DNA of 64,000 nt from contig NC_091131.1 in NCBI RefSeq assembly GCF_040183065.1, forward strand, positions 16,184,800 to 16,248,799, read 5' to 3'. The stretch is from Periplaneta americana. Its lineage: Eukaryota > Arthropoda > Insecta > Blattodea > Blattidae. Shown piece by piece: positions 11,541 to 59,325 of this stretch (positions are counted from its first letter, which is position 1; the number at the start of each line of letters is the position of its first letter). Under the pieces are notes generated by a model. That model saw only the letters and a list, made by a program, of their open reading frames with translations, was not told the DNA's origin and did no database searches. The position numbers and the translations under genes are program-made.

Positions 11541-11648
11541 AAAGCTACAAATTAAAGTGGTGACCTCCATTTTTAATGAGTTCTCAGATAGTATCACTGC
11601 TAGATGGCAGTATTAGCCGGGTGTTAAGATAATCGATGTGCACACTAA

Positions 11649-11720
11649 CGCCGGTTCCTACGTGGGCGACAGCAGCGACGCGACACAAGCGGACGGAGCG
11701 GCCCAGCGATACGCTTGTGT
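11649..11720 (+). repeat. Harbinger left terminal and subterminal repeats
   Basis: After the terminal repeat the sequence is rich in GCGACG, GCGACA and GCGGAC words. The same words crowd the right end (14836-15063). Repeated subterminal words of this kind are likely binding sites for the transposase or its MADF partner; this is inference. Confidence 0.6.
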
Positions 11721-11804
11721 CGCAATTATTTATGTAGGTTATTGTGTTCTACGTGGACTGACGATGCGGGCGACACCGGCGATCATATTCAAAACTATTT
11801 CACC

Positions 11805-14320
11805 ATGATCTCCAAGGAGAAAAGACGTAACTTAATACTTTTAGACAGTTCGGTGCTAACGTATGCATATTTAAAAAGGAAGAGTGAACGACGTCAAACA
11901 AACATTATTTATAAAGAACGTCCAATTTATGGCGAGTTTCATCACCTTTATAGAAGATTGCGGCAGTATCCGGAATTGTTTCGTAATTACACGAGAATGA
12001 CAATAGAAACATTCGATTACATTGTCAGTGTTCTAAAAAATGGTTTTACTTTGAGGACAACCAACTTTCAAAGGCCAATATCATTGGAGGAACGGCTTAT
12101 TGTTACTCTCAGGTAAGCATCATTAAATTTATTATTTTTCAGTCATCAAAATGATTTTTTTACTTATGTAAAGAAAATACAATTATTATTGAGTAAATAG
12201 AAATTGTATAACATCAAAGATGGTGGAAGGTAAATAAATAGTTCAATCTTGGTTAAAATTTAGTGTACAAATTTTATGTGCTCTCGGATTTTTACATCTT
12301 TGCACGCTTACTGTATTTACACAAAAGGTTGTAAAAGTTACAAATAACAGGGTGTTGTTACTCGCTTAATGGGCTTTTTAATGCCAAGGTTGTTAATTAA
12401 ACGGATTAATTAGTACGTCGGTCACAGTCAGTGATTGCTGATCCTGTTCGACGTTGACTTCATACTCGTAGTTGTATTGATTGAAACATGAAGGTACGTA
12501 ACTGCTTGAAGATGAATGTGAAGCTGAAGACTGTCCTGGTGAAGGCATTGGTGAAGGTGTAGCACTATCTAATTCCTGTATAACCAAATCTTGGATCTTG
12601 CTTCGAAGTTTCAGTTTTTTTATGGGGTTCATAGTTTTAAAGTAAGGAAGAAGTGACTTAAAAAAATTAAGATCATCATCGTCTGGGTCTTTGAGTAGTT
12701 CAAGTTTCAAGTCCTCTTTCTTCAATAATTCACATTCAAAAGTAGAGAGTGAACTTTGTTTCTGCTTGTTTTTTTGAGGGCGGACTGTTTGTGGTGCGAT
12801 ATGTACAGTAGTATCACTTTTACGCTGTTTTGGAGTAGGTGGTGCTAGAATGTCGGATGTAATGTTGGCAAGCACTGATTCAGAGATGACATTATCTTCC
12901 GTTTCCTCATGTCCCTCATCCAGTAGAGTATCGTCAAGAGAGGAGGTCGAGTCTTCCACAGTTTACAAATTGGAGCTAGTTGATCGAGGCTGAGCCATAT
13001 CTTTCAAAAAAAGCATCGACTGGAAATAGGGCCATTTTCCGTTGTAGACAGGAGCCGAATCAGCTGAATCCCCAGACTTTGGAATGGGTACTTTCTTGTA
13101 CTCCCTGTTAAATGTATCTCTCAAATTTTTCCATTTTTTCTTCACGGCGGCTGCAGCTGAAAAAAGAAAGTTTTCTTTTATTTGCCATTTTCAGAAGTTT
13201 AAGTTGTTAAAAAACGAATTACAGAACTGTGCAATCGTACAAAATTACTTAAGACATTCTCAAAGATATGTGCTAAAGTTAGTGTGATAAGGCAGTTTGT
13301 AACATTATTTAAATTGTAAAACTGATAGTTACTAAACTAATTACAGTAACAAAATTTTTGTGCATAAAAATTACATTTATAATCGGCCTCCTTTGTTATA
13401 ATGATATAATGGTTATTTCCAGGTATCTGGTCACAGGAATGCAATTCAAGCAGTTGGCATGTTCTTTCCGGATATCAAAAACAGCAGTTAGCACCATGAT
13501 CGTTGATATTTGCAAGTCCATCTGGTTAAACTTGCATCCAATTTATATGCCAGTACCGACTCAGAAGACTTTGAAGAAAAATGGTGAAGAATTTGGTAAG
13601 AAATGGGGTTTTCCAAACTGTGTGGGTGCTCTCGATGGAAAACATATTCGAATCAAACGGCCCAATAATTCGCAAAACATGTATAGGAACTACAAAGGTT
13701 TTTATTCAACAAACATGTTAACTGTGACTGATGCAAATTACAAGTTTGTTGTAGTTGATATTGGTGGCTATGGCAAAGACAGCGATGGTGGAATGTTTGC
13801 TGCCTCGGCCTTAAGTGAACAACTTGAATCAAAAACATTAAATCTGCCGCGCCCACAAAAACTGCCAAACTCAGAAATTGAAGCACCATTTGTTATAATT
13901 GCAGACGAAGGCTTTCCTCTACGACCATATCTCTTACGACCTTTCCCAAGAAACCAATTAGTAGAGGGTGGTGAGAAAGATGTTTTCAATTATCGATTGG
14001 CCAGGGCTCGAATGGTTGTTGAGTGTTCTTATGGAAGTCTCCTATCAAAATTCAATATATTATCATTCCCTATTGCAACCGACATTCACAACACTATACA
14101 TATAGTCCAAGCCATGACCCTTCTTCACAACATTATCAGAGACCGAGATGGGTTTACGGATGAAGAAATTTCTACATTCATTAATGTTGAACGTGATCCA
14201 CAAACTGCTATGGCAACTTCAAGAAAACACAATAGCATGAAGAAACGTGCTAAGGAAATTCCAGAGCTGTTTTCCTCATACTTCATCAAAAATCTCCTCC
14301 CTCATCAACAGCCAGCGTGA
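11805..14320 (+). CDS. PIF/Harbinger transposase (HARBI1-like), two exons
   Basis: This is the enzyme that would cut and rejoin the element. Exon 1 is 11805-12112, ending CTCAG before GTAAGC. Exon 2 is 13423-14320, starting after TTATTTCCAG. The join is in frame and gives 401 residues, about the usual length for the family. The start at 11805 (MISKEKRRNL) is chosen because upstream residues are not family-like; an upstream in-frame codon at 11715 is possible. The family DDE triad is visible: Asp174 in GALDGKH, Asp264 in IADEGFPL and Glu303 in ARMVVECSYG. There are no stops or frameshifts. The intron (12113-13422) contains exon 2 of the opposite-strand MADF gene. Confidence 0.92.
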
Positions 14321-14724
14321 GAATTACACTAGTGGATGACTGTTGGGTAAACATTAAACATTCAGTGACTGTTGTGTGCGCAATGTGAGTAAAGACCCTA
14401 GTTTCAAATATTGTAATGCAGAATTGTTGTAAATAAAACCATATAAGATTAACCATATTTGCAGTATTTATTAAGTATCCGGTAAAATTGTACTGTATGA
14501 GTATGACTGTTATACCACGACAACCAAAGTAAACATAAACTTGTACTAACTTAACCTTACTTTTGTAAGACAATAATTAAAGGTTACTTACTGGATTCAT
14601 GAACTTCTTCTGCTACTTTATTCCACAATCGTTCATTCATCAACTTATTATGGTAATGCATATGACGCATATTCCACAAAGATGGGTACTTTTGCACCAT
14701 TGAAATAATTTCTTCAACAGACAT
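12393..14724 (-). pseudogene. MADF/BESS DNA-binding protein of the Harbinger element, one in-frame stop
   Basis: The accessory protein of the element. Exon 1 runs 14724-14592 and starts MSVEEIISMVQKYPSLWNMR, the first half of a MADF domain. It ends before GTAAGT. Exon 2 runs from 13156 (after TTTTTTCAG) to 12393 and continues the domain with KKKWKNLRDTFNRE and a W-P-Y-F block. Near the C-terminus NFFKSLLPYFKTMNP with its following helix matches a BESS motif. A low-complexity Ser-rich tail follows. Total length is 298 residues, interrupted by one TAA at 12965-12963, probably from CAA. Its intron (13157-14591) contains the whole of transposase exon 2. Alternatives: a functional truncated MADF-only protein, or a stop present only in this copy. 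Confidence 0.85.
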
Positions 14725-14779
14725 AATGATAACTCATGAAGTCACACAGACCGGAACTGTATTACACTGTTTTCTCAAG

Positions 14780-15063
14780 TCCCATCTACCGGCCAACAGC
14801 TGACATCGGTGGCGCCGTCAGCATCGCTGGCGCATCACCGTACTACGTGGGCGACACGGGCGACACGAACGACAGGAGCGACGCGACTCGAGCGGACGAA
14901 GCGACCAAAGACAAACTGATTTGAATTTTCAAAATACGCTCGCATCGCCCGCTCATGTCGCGTCGCTATGTTCGGCCACATTGAACGCTCCCATGCATTG
15001 CCATTGGTTTGTAATTTCGTCGCTCATGTCGCGTCGCTGCGGTCGCCCACGTAGGACCCGGCG
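14780..15063 (-). repeat. Harbinger right subterminal region with internal TIR-like copy
   Basis: Besides the terminal repeat, an internal copy of TACTACGTGGGCGAC lies at about 14839 in the same orientation as the left end. It is followed by many GCGAC, GACACG and GCGGACGAAGCG words. The stretch is GC-rich compared with the rest of the element and lies just upstream of the MADF start, so it could also hold that gene's promoter. Confidence 0.6.
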
Positions 15064-15066
15064 TAA

Positions 15067-15302: not shown

Positions 15303-15858
15303 ATATTTATTTATTTATTTATTTATTTATTTACTTACTTATTTACGTATTTATTTACTTACTTATTTACTTATTTATTTACTTATTTACTTAGTTATTC
15401 ACTTATTTATTTACTTATTTATTTACTTACTTAGTTACTTATTTACTTATTTATTTACTTAGTTATTTATTTATTTATTTACTTATTTATTTACTTATTT
15501 ATTTACTTACTTATTTATTTATTTACTTTTTTACTTATTTATTTACTTATTTACTTAGTTATTCACTTATTTATTTACTTATTTACTTATTTATTTACTT
15601 ACTTAGTTACTTATTTACTTATTTATTTACTTACTTATTTATTTATTTACTTATTTATTTACTTATTTACTTAGTTACTTATTTACTTATTTATTTACTT
15701 ATTTATTTATTTATTTACTTATTTACTTATTTATTTACTTATTTACTTATTTATTTACTTATTTACTTAGTTATTCACTTATTTATTTACTTATTTACTT
15801 ATTTATTTACTTACTTAGTTACTTATTTACTTATTTATTTACTTATTTATTTATTTAC
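15303..15858. repeat. TTTA/CTTA tetranucleotide tract, about 555 bp
   Basis: A run of ATTT and ACTT tetranucleotides with occasional AGTT and CACT. Longer internal repeats (for example TTATTTACTTAGTTATTCAC at about 15380, 15550 and 15760) show that segments were duplicated as blocks. The frame of alternating Leu/Phe/Tyr/Thr is repeat only. Confidence 0.96.
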
Positions 15859-51600: not shown

Positions 51601-54361
51601 TCCTTTAGTCTTATAATAGTTCATTCAGTCAGTACAGCAGTGCACGACATAAGTACAGTATACGATGAAAGAGTAATGGAACGGAGAAAAATTCTCTCCG
51701 GCGCCGGGATTTGAACCCGGGTTTTCAGCTCTACGTGCTGATGCTTTATCCACTAAGCCACACCGGATACAACCCCGACGCCGGTTAGAATCGTCTCAGA
51801 TTAAGCTCCAACTCTTGGGTTCCCTCTAGTGGCCGCCCTCTGCACTACCTCATAGATGTCTATGAACGCAGGACCGAAGTCCACACATGTGCTGCGGTGC
51901 ACTCGATATGAGTGACTAGTTGGCCGGGATCCGGCCACTAGAGGGAACCCAAGAGTTGGAGCTTAATCTGAGACGATTCTAACCGGCGTCGGGGTTGTAT
52001 CCGGTGTGGCTTAGTGGATAAAGCATCAGCACGTAGAGCTGAAAACCCGGGTTCAAATCCAGGCGTCGGAGAGAATTTTTCTCCGTTCCATTACTCTTTC
52101 ATCGTATGATGACGCAGAATATCTGCATGGAAATATCATATGTACTTCGGTACATTAAAATAATATATATAAGTACAGTAGTGCACGACGTAGTACAGTA
52201 TTGCACGACGTATTACAGTAGTGCTCGACGTATTACAGTAGTGGACGACGTAGTACAGTAATGCACGACGTATTACAGTAGTGGACGACGTAGTACAGTA
52301 GTGCACGACGTAGTACAGTAGTGCACGACGTAGTACAGTAGTGCACAACGTATTACAGTAGTGCACGACGTATTACAGTAGTGGACGACGTAGTAAAGTA
52401 GTGCACGACGTATTACAGTAGTGGACGACGTATTACAGTAGTGGACGACGTAGTACAGTAGTGCACGACGTAGTACAGTAGTGGACGACGTATTACAGTA
52501 GTTGACGACGTAGTACAGTAGTGCACGACGTAGTACAGTAGTGCACGACGTATTACAGTAGTGGACGACGTATTACAGTAGTGGACGACGTAGTACAGTA
52601 GTGCACGACGTATTACAGTAGTGGACGACGTATTACAGTAGTGCACGACGTATTACAGTAGTGGACGACGTAGTACAGTAGTACACGACGTAGTACAGTA
52701 GTGCACAACGTATTACAGTAGTGCACGACGTATTACAGTAGTGGACGACGTAGTACAGTAGTGCACGACGTATTACAGTAGTGGACGACGTATTACAGTA
52801 GTGGACGACGTAGTACAGTAGTGCACGACGTAGTACAGTAGTGCACGACGTATTACAGTAGTGCACGACGTAGTACAGTAGTGCACGACGTAGTACAGTA
52901 GTGGACGACGTATTACAGTACTGGACGACGTAGTACAGTAGTGCACGACGTAGTACAGTAGTGCACGACGTATTACAGTAGTGGACGACGTATTACAGTA
53001 GTGGACGACGTAGTACAGTAGTGCACGACGTAGTACAGTAGTGCACGACGTAGTACAGTAGTGCACGACGTATTACAGTAGTGGACGACGTAGTACAGTA
53101 GTGCACGACGTAGTACAGTAGTGCACGACGTATTACAGTAGTGCACGACGTATTACAGTAGTGCACGACGTATTACAGTAGTGGACGACGTATTACAGTA
53201 GTGGACGACGTAGTACAGTAGTGCACGACGTAGTACAGTAGTGCACGACGTATTACAGTAGTGGACGACGTAGTACAGTAGTGGACGACGTAGTACAGTA
53301 GTGCACGACGTAGTACAGTAGTGCACGACGTAGTACAGTAGTGCACGACGTATTACAGTAGTGGACGACGTATTACAGTAGTGGACGACGTAGTACAGTA
53401 GTGCACGACGTAGTACAGTAGTGCACGACGTATTGCAGTAGTGCACGACGTATTACAGTAGTGGACGACGTAGTACAGTAGTGCACGACGTAGTTCAGTA
53501 GTGCACGACGTATTGCAGTAGTGGACGACGTAGTACAGTAGTGCACGACGTAGTACAGTAGTGGACGACGAAGTGCAGTAGCTCACGACATAAGTGCAGT
53601 AGAGTACGAAGTATTAGAGTTATGCACGACGTAGTACAGTAGTGCACAACATATTAGAGTACCGGTAGTGCAGGGCACAGTACAGTAGCACACGACATAA
53701 GTACAGTAGTGCACGAATGTTAATTCATTCAGTCGTATATTCATTCAGTCAAATATTAATTTCTTTAGTCGTTCATTCATTCATTTATTCATTCATTCAT
53801 TCGTATACTAATTCCTTCAGTCGTACATTATTTCGTATTGGCATATATAATTATTTCATTATGCGTTAATTCATCTAATCGTACGTTAATTCATTCAGCC
53901 GTGCATTGATTGACTCAATCTTACATTAACATTCATCAATGGGAACACTTTAGGTATGGAAACTTCCGCAATAAGATTACCTATAATGTGATAGCAGTAT
54001 ATTATATTGCAACTGTCTGGACCTTACTTACTAGCGACAGTGACATTGATGAGTACTTCCAGGTCTTCATCTGCGTTGTCCGGGTCGTTGACGTAGCAGC
54101 CCCATTGCCCCGAATCCACATACAAGTCTACCTGCGACACACTGAGGGCGCACACCCCTAGATGCAGGGAGTCTGCGAACCAGTAAAAGCGGAACGGATC
54201 TCGCTGCAGTGGCTGTTTGGGGATGCTGAAGCGAAGGTGTTCTCCAGAGGGATGTCGGAACCAACAGTACTCCAGAGGGGTGCCCGCCCGGCAAGACAGG
54301 GTCATCTGCGCACCATTCAGTACCGCCAGGTTGCCCTCCTCCGTCCAGACCCCTTGATATT
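35352..54361 (-). CDS. Ig-superfamily single-pass membrane protein, 3' part (four exons)
   Basis: The only host-like gene. Joining 54361-54032, 49132-48982, 38448-38255 and 35572-35352 gives 297 residues and a stop, with every junction in phase (1, 2, 1) and GT-AG sites throughout. Residues 1-109 are one Ig domain and 110-200 a second; each has four Cys (23, 32, 70, 88 and 131, 143, 178, 197) and the D-x-G-x-W-x-C ending. A linker and a Thr-Glu repeat stalk (225-250) lead to a membrane helix (about 259-282) and a 15-residue tail. Extracellular binding or adhesion is expected from this layout. No signal peptide is in view: the 5' exons are outside the window. I do not recognise the gene. The introns are 2.7, 10.5 and 4.9 kb and filled with transposons. 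Confidence 0.85.
35590..36250. other. Intron sequence, no feature seen
   Basis: Part of the intron between the last two Ig exons. Nothing recognised. Confidence 0.5.
36255..36520 (-). mobile_element. RTE-like LINE C-terminus, second family
   Basis: On the minus strand [19 protein letters not shown] leads to [20 protein letters not shown] and a stop, then a GATGATGATGATG tail. This is the G-R-P-x-x-x-W-R-R end of RTE-type ORFs. The same kind of GAT tail closes the LINE at 55334-56650. 5'-truncated. Confidence 0.8.
36700..36840 (+). mobile_element. RTE-like LINE tail, third family
   Basis: The frame ends [16 protein letters not shown] and a stop, followed by CCTGCCCTTGGGCAAAACAC. The upstream text of the same family appears at 63815-64000. 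Confidence 0.7.
37098..37988. mobile_element. Kolobok-like MITE with TTAA duplication
   Basis: TTAA borders both sides (37094-37097, 37989-37992). The left end is GGGGAGAGGATGGCATTATT and the right end, read inward, is GGGGAGAGGATGGTATTTTT. TTAA with a G-rich end fits Kolobok better than piggyBac, whose ends start CCC. Inside, about 150 bases are repeated directly (37621-37769 and 37794-37942), nearly identical. No coding content. Confidence 0.85.
38255..38448 (-). CDS. Ig gene exon: second half of the membrane-proximal Ig domain
   Basis: It follows CTTCTTCAG and ends before GTAAGT. It codes [20 protein letters not shown] then [20 protein letters not shown], with Cys178 and Cys197 and a possible N-glycosylation site (NLT). 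Spacer residues up to ETST follow. It is much more GC-rich than the surrounding intron. Confidence 0.88.
38570..39820 (-). mobile_element. Jockey/CR1-like LINE, 3' part with AAT tract
   Basis: On the minus strand 39815-39306 gives the C-terminal reverse-transcriptase region: [20 protein letters not shown], then [20 protein letters not shown], then [20 protein letters not shown]. The frame stops at 39306, but the following bases continue the family in another frame ([18 protein letters not shown], ...LNRTIRDWNALPADL). The 3' UTR carries an AAT tract (38690-38750) and ends near GTGAATAAATACATAC. It lies in the Ig gene intron. Confidence 0.83.
39822..40032. mobile_element. Fold-back MITE, about 210 bp
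   Basis: GAGAGCAGTGTATTACGATA at the left and its inverse near TATTACCATAATACACTGCT at the right, with TTACATTTGTTCGG inside. Relatives lie at 40195-40735 and 50125-50265. Confidence 0.75.
40195..40735. mobile_element. Fold-back MITE, second copy, split by a Penelope-like fragment
   Basis: The left half (TTTGAAAGAATATTAGTTTG onwards) and the right half (ending AATACATTGCTCTCTTAAA) are arms of the same family as 39822-40032. About 270 bases of other sequence lie between them (40287-40560). Confidence 0.7.
40287..40560 (+). mobile_element. Penelope-like element, 3' fragment
   Basis: The frame [20 protein letters not shown] then [13 protein letters not shown] resembles the text after the GIY-YIG domain in Penelope-like elements. 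It is followed by CACTGATGAAGACGTAACAT and CACGTCGAAACG, the hairpin-like end common to that group. Only the last 80 or so codons remain. Confidence 0.7.
40740..41780. other. Unassigned intron sequence
   Basis: It contains the end of the fold-back family (to about 40880), then GC-richer unique sequence to 41290 and a 113-codon frame (41502-41843) whose last third is SINE. No protein family recognised. Confidence 0.4.
41786..41880 (+). mobile_element. SINE 3' fragment
   Basis: CAAGTATTATCTCGCTATCA and AGTAGTTGATACAGCGTCGT followed by TAAATAACCAATTAAAACC: the 3' body of the 11309 SINE family. Head missing. Confidence 0.75.
41884..42205. repeat. 24-bp minisatellite, first block
   Basis: Imperfect units of TTCATTCAACCATCCAACAA plus 4 bases. 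Split from the second block by a LINE tail (42206-42655). Confidence 0.85.
42206..42655 (+). mobile_element. CR1-like LINE 3' UTR with TTA tract
   Basis: It ends GAGAAGGCCTTACGTCCTTA, then AAATAAAGTTATTATTATTA and a TTA run to about 42655, the same design as the tail at 20720-20815. It interrupts the 24-bp minisatellite. No coding part. Confidence 0.7.
42656..43365. repeat. 24-bp minisatellite, second block
   Basis: About 28 imperfect units, many read CAACAACCTATTCATTCAAC or with CCACC in place of AACC. Because 24 is a multiple of three, frames with an 8-residue period (NNLFIQPS) stay open for 150 codons on the plus strand. There is no sign of a gene. Confidence 0.9.
43386..43604 (-). mobile_element. 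RTE-like LINE tail with 17-bp target duplication
   Basis: TTAATTCAAGCATTCAT (43369-43385) and TTAATTCAAACATTCAT (43605-43621) flank about 220 bases of the inverse LINE 3' end. It sits at the edge of the 24-bp array. Confidence 0.85.
43625..44395. other. No gene seen
   Basis: Remnants of CATTCATT words to about 43700, then unremarkable intron sequence. Confidence 0.4.
44396..44655 (+). mobile_element. Possible Helitron remnant
   Basis: TATATCTATATATATAATTT followed by ACGGCTGAACGGATTTTAAT, a phrase frequent near the 5' end of insect Helitrons (compare AATGGCTGAACCGATTTATA at 17142), and a GAGAAGCGAAGCGAGC stretch at 44620. No certain 3' CTAG end. Confidence 0.4.
44657..44955. other. No gene seen
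   Basis: AT-rich intron sequence. Confidence 0.4.
44957..45682 (+). mobile_element. RTE-like LINE, 5'-truncated, open
   Basis: Same family as 25086-25933. The family text begins at [20 protein letters not shown] and stays open to AMNLRVP at 45647, followed by GCCATTTGTAAGTAAGTAAG. The first few residues (MLYR) come from flanking sequence. Near-identity with the copy at 46456-47715 indicates recent activity. No clear target duplication. Confidence 0.9.
45690..46345. other. No gene seen
   Basis: AT-rich intron sequence. Confidence 0.4.
46350..48893 (+). mobile_element. CR1/Jockey-like LINE interrupted by another LINE
   Basis: Up to 46455 and again from 47716 the sequence is the same LINE. 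The frame 47774-48376 gives [20 protein letters not shown], then [20 protein letters not shown] and ILISSI-like ending, the C-terminal domain of a CR1/Jockey-like reverse transcriptase. The 3' UTR runs to about 48893, with a GACCGAA...TTCGGTC hairpin at 48724 and AAATAAATAACAATA at the end. The start of the protein is missing. Confidence 0.8.
46456..47715 (-). mobile_element. RTE-like LINE, longest copy, with 96-bp flanking duplication
   Basis: The minus-strand frame is open from 47715 to 46476: it starts [20 protein letters not shown], then [20 protein letters not shown] with the first catalytic Asp, [36 protein letters not shown] with the YADD, and the family C-terminus ending MNLRVP. The tail is the inverse of GTAAGTAAGTA. 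The host sequence 46360-46455 is repeated at 47716-47812, with four or five changes, as a long target duplication. Without endonuclease and upstream parts it is not autonomous. Confidence 0.93.
48982..49132 (-). CDS. Ig gene exon: first half of the membrane-proximal Ig domain
   Basis: It follows CCCTACAG and ends before GTGAGT. It codes [20 protein letters not shown] then [20 protein letters not shown] and [10 protein letters not shown], with Cys131 and Cys143. The P-L-x-Y-C-x-F-x-x-P-x-G text mirrors exon 54032-54361, so the two domains arose by duplication. The Ig domain is split between this exon and 38255-38448. Confidence 0.86.
49145..49330 (-). other. Possible LINE scrap upstream of the exon
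   Basis: On the minus strand the text [20 protein letters not shown] and ISKNN loosely matches the LINE at 39700-39760 ([20 protein letters not shown]). Low certainty. Confidence 0.3.
49335..50120. other. No gene seen
   Basis: AT-rich intron sequence without recognisable features. Confidence 0.4.
50125..50265. mobile_element. Fold-back MITE fragment
   Basis: CAATTTAAGAGAACATTGTA and AATGATTGAAAGAATTTAAA, then AATTTGGTTCGAACAAATGT: one arm of the family at 39822 and 40195. Confidence 0.6.
50290..51625. repeat. AT-rich minisatellite block (32-bp, then 20-bp units)
   Basis: From 50290 to about 50800 units contain ATTAATTTCTTCTGTCGTAC with varied spacers. From about 50810 to 51610 it changes to 20-bp units TTCCTTCAGTCTTATAATAA, with some 19-bp forms (TTCTTCAGTCTTACATTAA). 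More than 35 units in the second part. Confidence 0.92.
51697..51767 (-). ncRNA. tRNA-like SINE head, full cloverleaf
   Basis: Read on the minus strand it can form a complete cloverleaf: a seven-pair acceptor stem (TCCGGTG with CGCCGGA, one G-T pair), D arm GCTT/AAGC, anticodon arm TCAGC/GCTGA and T arm CCGGG/CCCGG. The anticodon loop is ACGTAGA, which would place GTA as anticodon but with C at the position that is nearly always T in real tRNAs. Hence it is a SINE head rather than a working tRNA gene. Confidence 0.65.
52000..52070 (+). ncRNA. tRNA-like SINE head, second copy
   Basis: Same as 51697-51767 with changes in the T stem (CCAGG) and acceptor (CGTCGGA). Confidence 0.6.
52172..53580. 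repeat. 20-bp satellite, about 70 units, no length changes
   Basis: Two unit types alternate irregularly: TAGTACAGTAGTGCACGACG and TATTACAGTAGTGGACGACG. The T/G and C/G differences usually go together. I find the same register held from 52172 to 53580, so there is not one indel across 1.4 kb. The minus-strand frames of 77-97 codons are translations of the repeat (20 residues per three units). It lies in the 4.9-kb intron between Ig exons. Confidence 0.97.
53581..54000. repeat. Degenerate array edge
   Basis: Units of the 20-bp satellite break up to about 53720, then CATTCAGTCGTA and TTCATTCA words related to the 50.3-kb block continue to about 53930. Confidence 0.7.
54032..54361 (-). CDS. Ig gene exon: complete Ig domain
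   Basis: A phase 1-1 exon of 330 bases, the usual form for an Ig domain. It follows TTTTATCAG and ends before GTAAGTAAG. It codes [20 protein letters not shown] then [20 protein letters not shown], later [29 protein letters not shown] and INVTVA. Cys23, 32, 70 and 88 are the four-cysteine set, and NVT is a glycosylation site. Upstream exons are needed to complete the gene and none was found up to 64000. Confidence 0.88.
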
Positions 54362-58280: not shown

Positions 58281-59325
58281 CAGGGTGATTCACGAGGATT
58301 TACCGTCACTTACGGAACTTATTTCCGAAGACATTCTGAGCAAAGAGTCATACAAACATGTGTCCTAATCTCAATATTTTCAAAATTACATTAATTTGAA
58401 TTTGTATGTAAAATATCTTTTTTCTTTAGTTTTAAGGGTAAAAGAATATTACAAATAGGAAATATTCAGAAGTATCATTTCTTTAATTGGGTAATATTCC
58501 GAAACTAAAAATGTGTTATCAGCTGCTTTGTAAAGATTTTGCTTCAGTTTTTAACTAAAAATGATATAATTCTTACGCACTTATCACAAAAATTGTTACA
58601 AATCATACAACTTTAGGAACTTGATTCTTTACACAAATCACACTTTCAGGAATAACTCCCTGTAAAGTTAATTTGAAAATTGTCTAAATTAACTTTACAG
58701 GGAGTTATTCCTGAAAGTTTGATTTGCATAATACAGTCACTGTACGTAACAGAAAACCACAATTTAAGTCACACAGAGTTAGTGTGCACTCAATGTTGGT
58801 TGCTTGACGGTTGTCAGCCCACTTTGAGGTCTGTGGATATAGAGGGAAAAATTGGATCGGTTTCGGGTAGAGTTCCCTGGTAGCTCAGTTGGGAGAGCGT
58901 TGGTACGTTTAACCAAAGGTCCCGGGTTCGATACCCGGCCCCGGAACAGTTGATTCTTTACAGTTTAATTACACATCCTAATGTACAGTCTTGAAGAATT
59001 TACAAGAGCGGCGTGATTTGTAAAAATCGTTGTGATAAATGCATAAGAAAATGTAATTTTGGAATTAAAAATCGAAAACAAAATCTGTACGAAGCAACTA
59101 TGGTATTCGCAACACATTTTTAGCATCAGAATATTAGCTAATTAAAAAAATGATACTCTTGAACAGTTCATTCTTTATCTCTAATGTTCTTTTACCTTTA
59201 AAACTCAAGAATAATGGTAGTTTACAAACAATTTCAAATTAGTGTAACTCTGAAAATATTGACATTTTTTGCTCACAATGTCTTCGGAAATAAGCTCCGT
59301 AAGGGGAAAATTATTGTAATGTTTA
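58281..59325. mobile_element. Fold-back element with diverged arms and a tRNA-like centre
   Basis: The left arm begins CAGGGTGATTCACGAGGATT. The right arm read inward has CTTACGGAGCTTATTTCCGA and TCTTATGCATTTATCACAAC, both with left-arm matches, over some 450 bases. A tighter hairpin lies at 58646-58706 (AATAACTCCCTGTAAAGTTA). A tRNA-like stretch (58874-58946) lies near the centre. Confidence 0.7.
58874..58946 (+). ncRNA. tRNA-like sequence (anticodon position GTT)
   Basis: A-box TAGCTCAGTTGG and B-box GGTTCGATACC are perfect or nearly so. The T stem CCGGG/CCCGG and anticodon stem TTGGT/ACCAA pair fully. The acceptor stem has two mismatches (TCCCTGG with CCCCGGA). The loop ACGTTTA has C at the usual T position before GTT. 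It could be a decayed Asn tRNA, but sitting in a transposon it is more likely a SINE head. Confidence 0.55.

Follow-up and report, generated by a model that had tools for sequence, protein, structure and literature searches.

In the window, i.e. the whole 64-kb stretch of DNA analysed, positions 11649-15063 form a complete PIF/Harbinger element of 3,415 bp, bordered by TAA on both flanks, whose two genes lie on opposite strands and are interlocked: each carries in its intron the second exon of the other. From sequence comparisons we consider it highly probable that the element is a recently made copy within the MADF type of PIF/Harbinger cut-and-paste transposons, and that its interlocked layout was inherited from the ancestor of a broad lineage in the source genome. 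The features of the element are collected in Table 1.

Table 1. Features of the element, in window coordinates (T1 and T2, transposase exons; M1 and M2, exons of the MADF partner gene).
Feature	Position	Strand	Basis or remark
Target-site duplication TAA, left	11646..11648	.	flank sequence
Terminal inverted repeat, left	11649..11691	+	inverted pair I1, 44 nt, 91% complementary
Transposase exon 1 (T1)	11805..12112	+	ends in phase 2, AG/GTAAGC
Transposase intron, enclosing MADF exon 2 of the opposite strand	12113..13422	+	GTAAGC...TTCCAG
ATTAAA signal past MADF, within the transposase intron	12377..12382	-	consensus match only
MADF exon 2 (M2), second half of the MADF domain and BESS motif	12393..13156	-	gene model, Pfam
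BESS motif PF02944, 9.6e-13, past the premature stop	12579..12680	-	coordinates computed from residues 95-128
Premature stop TAA, MADF codon 109	12963..12965	-	private to the window copy
MADF intron, phase 1, enclosing transposase exon 2 of the opposite strand	13157..14591	-	GTAAGT...TTTCAG
Transposase exon 2 (T2)	13423..14320	+	DDE domain PF13359, 1.6e-28, about 13631-14131
AATAAA signal past the transposase, within the MADF intron	14432..14437	+	consensus match only
MADF exon 1 (M1), first half of the MADF domain	14592..14724	-	gene model
Terminal inverted repeat, right	15021..15063	-	inverted-pair search
Target-site duplication TAA, right	15064..15066	.	flank sequence

The element bears the marks of the PIF/Harbinger group. 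The 3-bp duplication, usually TAA or TTA in such elements, is TAA here, and the other complete ends of the family are bordered by TAA or TTA in differing surroundings. Terminal inverted repeats are present, the arms 11648-11691 and 15021-15064 being complementary at 91% over 44 nt. The transposase contains a DDE_Tnp_4 domain, matched from position 1 to 158 of the 158 of the profile, and a helix-turn-helix (Pfam). The second gene has a domain of the Myb/SANT/MADF kind, i.e. a MADF domain (PF10545, 6.5e-22) together with a BESS motif on its two parts (Pfam), though a stop shortens it in the copy studied here. Copies at different sites, each with its own duplication, point to a mobile, multicopy family. 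The TAA duplications, the inverted ends and the DDE transposase uphold the original prediction of a Harbinger element, and the Pfam domains on both genes bear out the transposase and the MADF partner assigned to it. The side-by-side arrangement usually reported for PIF/Harbinger genes, which is common without being defining, is not that of the window's family. Of the 42 GCGAC words of the window 16 are inside the element, all near its ends; they are a possible candidate for the binding site of the partner.

No second copy of the element was found within the 64-kb window. Outside the source genome no relative was found in scans of viral contigs (with the transposase and with MADF), in a scan of genome contigs or by tblastn against phages, and no solved structure matching by sequence was found. 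Elsewhere in the window Rfam matches tRNAs at 51696-51767 (-), 52000-52071 (+) and 58874-58946 (+), which may be either genes or tRNA-derived repeats; the first two are on opposite strands, about 230 bp apart. Tandem arrays occur at 786-1314 (44-bp unit, 12 times at 99%) and 52172-53716 (20-bp unit, about 77 times), and a TTTA/TTAC-rich array (15304-15857) is located just right of the element.

The order of the exons in the window copy is T1 (+), M2 (-), T2 (+), M1 (-), which confirms the reciprocal nesting on opposite strands that had been proposed. The four splice sites, also as proposed, are canonical (GT...AG) and the two joins are in frame in the predicted gene models. Homology runs through both joins. 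In the transposase, HTH_Tnp_4 (PF13613, 4.6e-07, Pfam) extends over residues 92-128 and therefore spans the join at residue 103; in the partner, the MADF domain scores 78.1 bits when the exons are joined versus 34.7 and 37.2 bits when they are taken separately. Joined T1 and T2 encode 401 aa, open in the window copy. Each intron holds a long open stretch, antisense over 189 codons in the transposase intron and sense over 335 codons in the MADF intron; neither length was reached by any of 2000 base shuffles.

For the MADF gene the original prediction gave an exon and intron model that holds, but it overlooked the stop at codon 109. This stop separates the BESS motif from the MADF domain, so the protein of the window copy would have at most 108 aa. 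The same codon is a sense codon in all six other copies that cover the position. Its partner being cut short by this private stop, the window copy probably depends on the MADF protein of other copies.

Other copies of the window's family (family A) were searched by DNA in the source genome (3.23 Gb, 91 contigs), and 23 candidates were scored. Four copies are full-length, including that of the window, two are split by later insertions and the others are partial. The aligned copies are collinear with the window copy across the parts they retain. Copies with the two genes side by side, which would have spoken against the proposed layout, were looked for in the family and none was found. One of the split copies (G000:C3:49881885-49884285) is interrupted by an insertion with ends CCCTT...AAGGG and TTAA on either side, which we take to be piggyBac-like.

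No full-length copy among the four keeps two open genes. Two of them, the window's and C7, have an open transposase, C7 having its MADF exon 2 broken by a 1-nt insertion; in C5 the MADF frame is open and the transposase has a stop and a 5-nt insertion, and in C16a both genes are broken. Young copies diverge by 0.12-0.43% among themselves, and older from young copies by about 1.7-3.7%; a rule-based count gives 7 substitutions private to the window copy. Between two subfamilies the fixed changes in the transposase are 8 synonymous and 1 replacement, and those in MADF 2 and 2, i.e. few sites without a clear purifying signal. Changes found in a single copy are mostly replacements (33 of 41 in the transposase, 20 of 28 in MADF). 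This pattern fits a transposase that would have been constrained while active, in copies that decayed afterwards.

To place the layout among relatives, 16 loci (L045-L060) were taken from transposase matches, of which 131 had been scored out of 2103 candidates. The main criterion was a long open frame, with several groups represented, so that they form a non-random sample; L061 and L062 were added afterwards for a whole MADF domain adjoining the transposase. The best PF13359 matches (L001-L008) belong to other transposase groups, about 21% identical to that of the window where they match at all, and were not used; two of them (L005 and L007, G000:C6 and C2) represent a DDE_Tnp_4 transposase from a different group, which is multicopy and presumably THAP-like at its N-terminus.

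A layout could be read in 15 PIF-MADF families of the source genome: 11 are interleaved and 4 are convergent but side by side. The interleaved ones comprise the window's family and family C, both read directly, seven families recognised with independent profiles, and L048 and L050, recognised with iterated profiles only. With profiles from families A-D alone, M2 is found between the two transposase exons, on the opposite strand, at 11 of the 16 loci, which correspond to the seven families (grouped by eye). Ten of the 11 interleaved families have M1 on the far side of T2, the position it takes in the window copy; for L055 it was not found in the stretch examined. The layout, which the original prediction did not know as the standard one, is no one-off: among the related families sampled, interleaving is the commoner of the two.

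The E-values of the iterated profiles are partly circular; the 18 loci were rescanned with the seed profiles only, giving 50 matches on the assigned strand and 1 elsewhere. In this rescan the side was also required for T1 and M1, while M2 and BESS, being the outcome, were allowed on either side. On unrelated DNA of the window the profiles gave 1 weak match in eight 6-kb chunks. A second weak M1-like stretch exists in L045 and in L050, beside the main one.

The transposases of the other interleaved families are about 35-42% identical to that of the window. Inverted ends and identical 3-bp duplications surround whole interleaved elements at 6 of 18 loci examined, in six families, one each. Family C, with a transposase 35-37% identical to the window's, has its interleaved genes in a decayed copy that retains inverted ends and is bordered by a TAC duplication. 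L053 (T2 and M1 only), L051 (no MADF found) and family D were left out of the count, as were L040 and L042, which hold exon 2 and M1 of family C, the other parts not being found in the stretches examined. Family D (L044:484-2171) is a PIF internal-deletion derivative with a TAA duplication; its T1 and M1 donor phases match those of the window's family, and it would fit an interleaved layout.

The side-by-side families are B, L049, L061 and L062. Family B (L039, L021-L025) is the closest to the window's by DNA and protein match, its transposase being about 45% identical. It has both introns at the same positions and a MADF-BESS gene on the opposite strand; however, the order is T1, T2, then M2, M1, convergent and side by side, and the inverted ends differ. 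Its MADF part is known from the single copy L039, which has a stop near the join, the other copies examined ending before M1. The assignment of L049 as side by side relies on the downstream BESS motif alone, its sole M1 match being weak and on the other side and strand. PIF families with an undivided MADF domain, convergent and side by side with the transposase, were seen at G000:C17:10672010-10673551, C17:9492492-9493895 and C10:112664743-112666133.

The splice sites are shared across families. By manual reading the transposase intron is found before the same R-Y/F-L residues and in phase 2, with AG/GT at 15 of the 16 loci, and all 16 agree in the phase of the M2 acceptor. For the M1 donor, 12 of 15 loci show GT in phase 1; it is GC in L045, none is evident in L050, and L053 is unassigned. 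Joined across the antisense transposase exon, the MADF domains of five further families reach 67-85 bits (Pfam). In relatives that have neither intron the genes lie side by side. The transposases of L049, L051, L061 and L062 have no intron at the site of the window's family (those of L061 and L062 are interrupted elsewhere), and the MADF domain of L061 and L062 is in one frame. The distance between M2 and T2 ranges from about 23 to over 300 bp, and reaches 3 kb in family C. The shortest is that of L047, in which the second exons are separated by a 23-bp segment whose ends read CAG on the one strand and TAG on the opposite one. This segment would be the predicted 3' splice site of both genes, one per strand, so that both acceptors would be made of the same base pairs. 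The segment with its border occurs at 14 places with at most 3 mismatches (G000:C1:95997477-95997507 and 13 others).

In the reading that we favour, each gene would start close to an end of the element, and the two would converge with their exons interlocked. Splicing of either pre-mRNA would remove the intron that holds the second exon of the other gene, on the opposite strand. Downstream of either gene, the nearest poly(A)-like signal sits in the intron of the other; from the positions of these signals and of the splice sites, the mature mRNAs need not overlap. The primary transcripts would overlap by about 2 kb. The layout probably persists because disentangling would require several simultaneous steps.

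As to its origin, it is probably an old inherited entanglement of a convergent side-by-side pair, rarely undone. The simplest reading, although weakly supported, would be a single origin from such a pair with later disentangling in family B and perhaps in L049. One idea is that a tandem dimer followed by three deletions might produce the exon order and both introns at once. In the transposase tree, for which L061 and L062 were chosen as the root, family B is beside the interleaved L046 (88/86) and L049 is inside the interleaved set. Grouping all intron-bearing families is nearly cost-free (p-AU 0.384), and a single clade of all interleaved families, with a log-likelihood 13.4 lower, is not rejected (p-AU 0.11). 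The trees being weakly resolved, more than one origin or loss is possible. That interleaving arose repeatedly, through recurrent dimer formation and deletion, nevertheless seems to us quite improbable: the transposase tree does split the interleaved families, as the positions of B and L049 indicate, but order, intron sites and phases are identical every time, the grouping of intron-bearing families is compatible with the data, and the broad groups of the MADF tree are similar to those of the transposase tree, as joint descent predicts. A single rearrangement peculiar to the window's family, or two unrelated insertions that happened to land together, could be suspected given that the closest family by transposase match, B, is side by side. 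This can practically be dismissed, the same order being present in the family copies and in 10 other families, with shared intron positions and phases. Very improbable, too, is that the exons are real but spliced otherwise, e.g. with M1 and M2 as separate short proteins or T1 non-coding; some decayed copies such as L050 do have no evident donor, yet the MADF and helix-turn-helix homologies span the joins, the same transposase residues are contiguous in L049, L051, L061 and L062, and the donor and acceptor phases are conserved.

An antisense coupling of the expression of the two genes is possible. The overlap of about 2 kb between pre-mRNAs could lead to double-stranded RNA and small-RNA silencing or to mutual hindrance of splicing, and thereby to self-limitation. 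We nonetheless judge it unlikely that selection keeps the interleaving because antisense transcription couples or limits both genes. The recurrence of the layout in 11 of the 15 readable families would agree with it, as would the acceptors of both genes placed on the same 23-bp segment in L047; however, the side-by-side families B, L049, L061 and L062 also persist, so interleaving is not required, and the M2-T2 distance varies widely. A wider reading, to which we give somewhat more credit while still finding it doubtful, is that a whole lineage of animal PIF/Harbinger elements is built on reciprocally nested genes of opposite strands, the introns being born with the interleaving and the layout kept by tying the expression and the fate of the two genes. 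An internal deletion would then tend to break both genes, and each pre-mRNA would be antisense to an exon of the other. If real, a reciprocal nesting shared across divergent families would make a natural series to distinguish a frozen accident from a regulated pair, with side-by-side relatives in the same genome as ready controls. When such elements are annotated one exon or one strand at a time, the partner gene can be split or overlooked.

We found no description of an interleaved transposase-MADF pair in the open-access literature searched, though a Repbase or Dfam record may exist; a term search of PMC11893794 gave no match. Insect PIF/Harbinger elements and the domesticated pairs DPLG7-DPM7, APLG1-APM1, APLG2-APM2 and LPLG2-LPM2 are described in the accessible part of PMC9710019. 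Like the window element, these pairs comprise a transposase and a MADF gene coming from one element. They differ in that the two genes are adjacent (separated by 97 and 179 bp in Anopheles gambiae), in an orientation that is not always the same, and the accessible part describes no nesting of exons (PMC9710019). According to the same part of this source, the cockroach domesticated transposases BPLG1 and BPLG2 have two exons each, the BPLG2 intron measures about 900-1500 bp with the exception of one species, and no MADF gene adjoins them (PMC9710019). The long introns seen in domesticated relatives, cockroach BPLG2 among them, might be what is left of a lost partner exon, which we put forward as an idea.

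In plants, PIF/Harbinger elements described from Medicago (PMC2213677) and from grapevine (PMC2528002) resemble that of the window by a transposase accompanied by ORF1, a 3-bp duplication that is mostly TAA or TTA, and inverted ends. In contrast to the window, orf1 of Medicago is up- or downstream of the transposase (PMC2213677), and nested genes are not described for Medicago (PMC2213677) or grapevine (PMC2528002) in the accessible text of these sources. In rice and zebrafish, as reported in the part of PMC9710019 available, transposition needs both the partner and the transposase. Zebrafish Harbinger3_DR can be likened to the window element by its Myb-like partner; that partner is required for nuclear entry of the transposase and binds a 9-bp subterminal motif, according to the same part of this source (PMC9710019).
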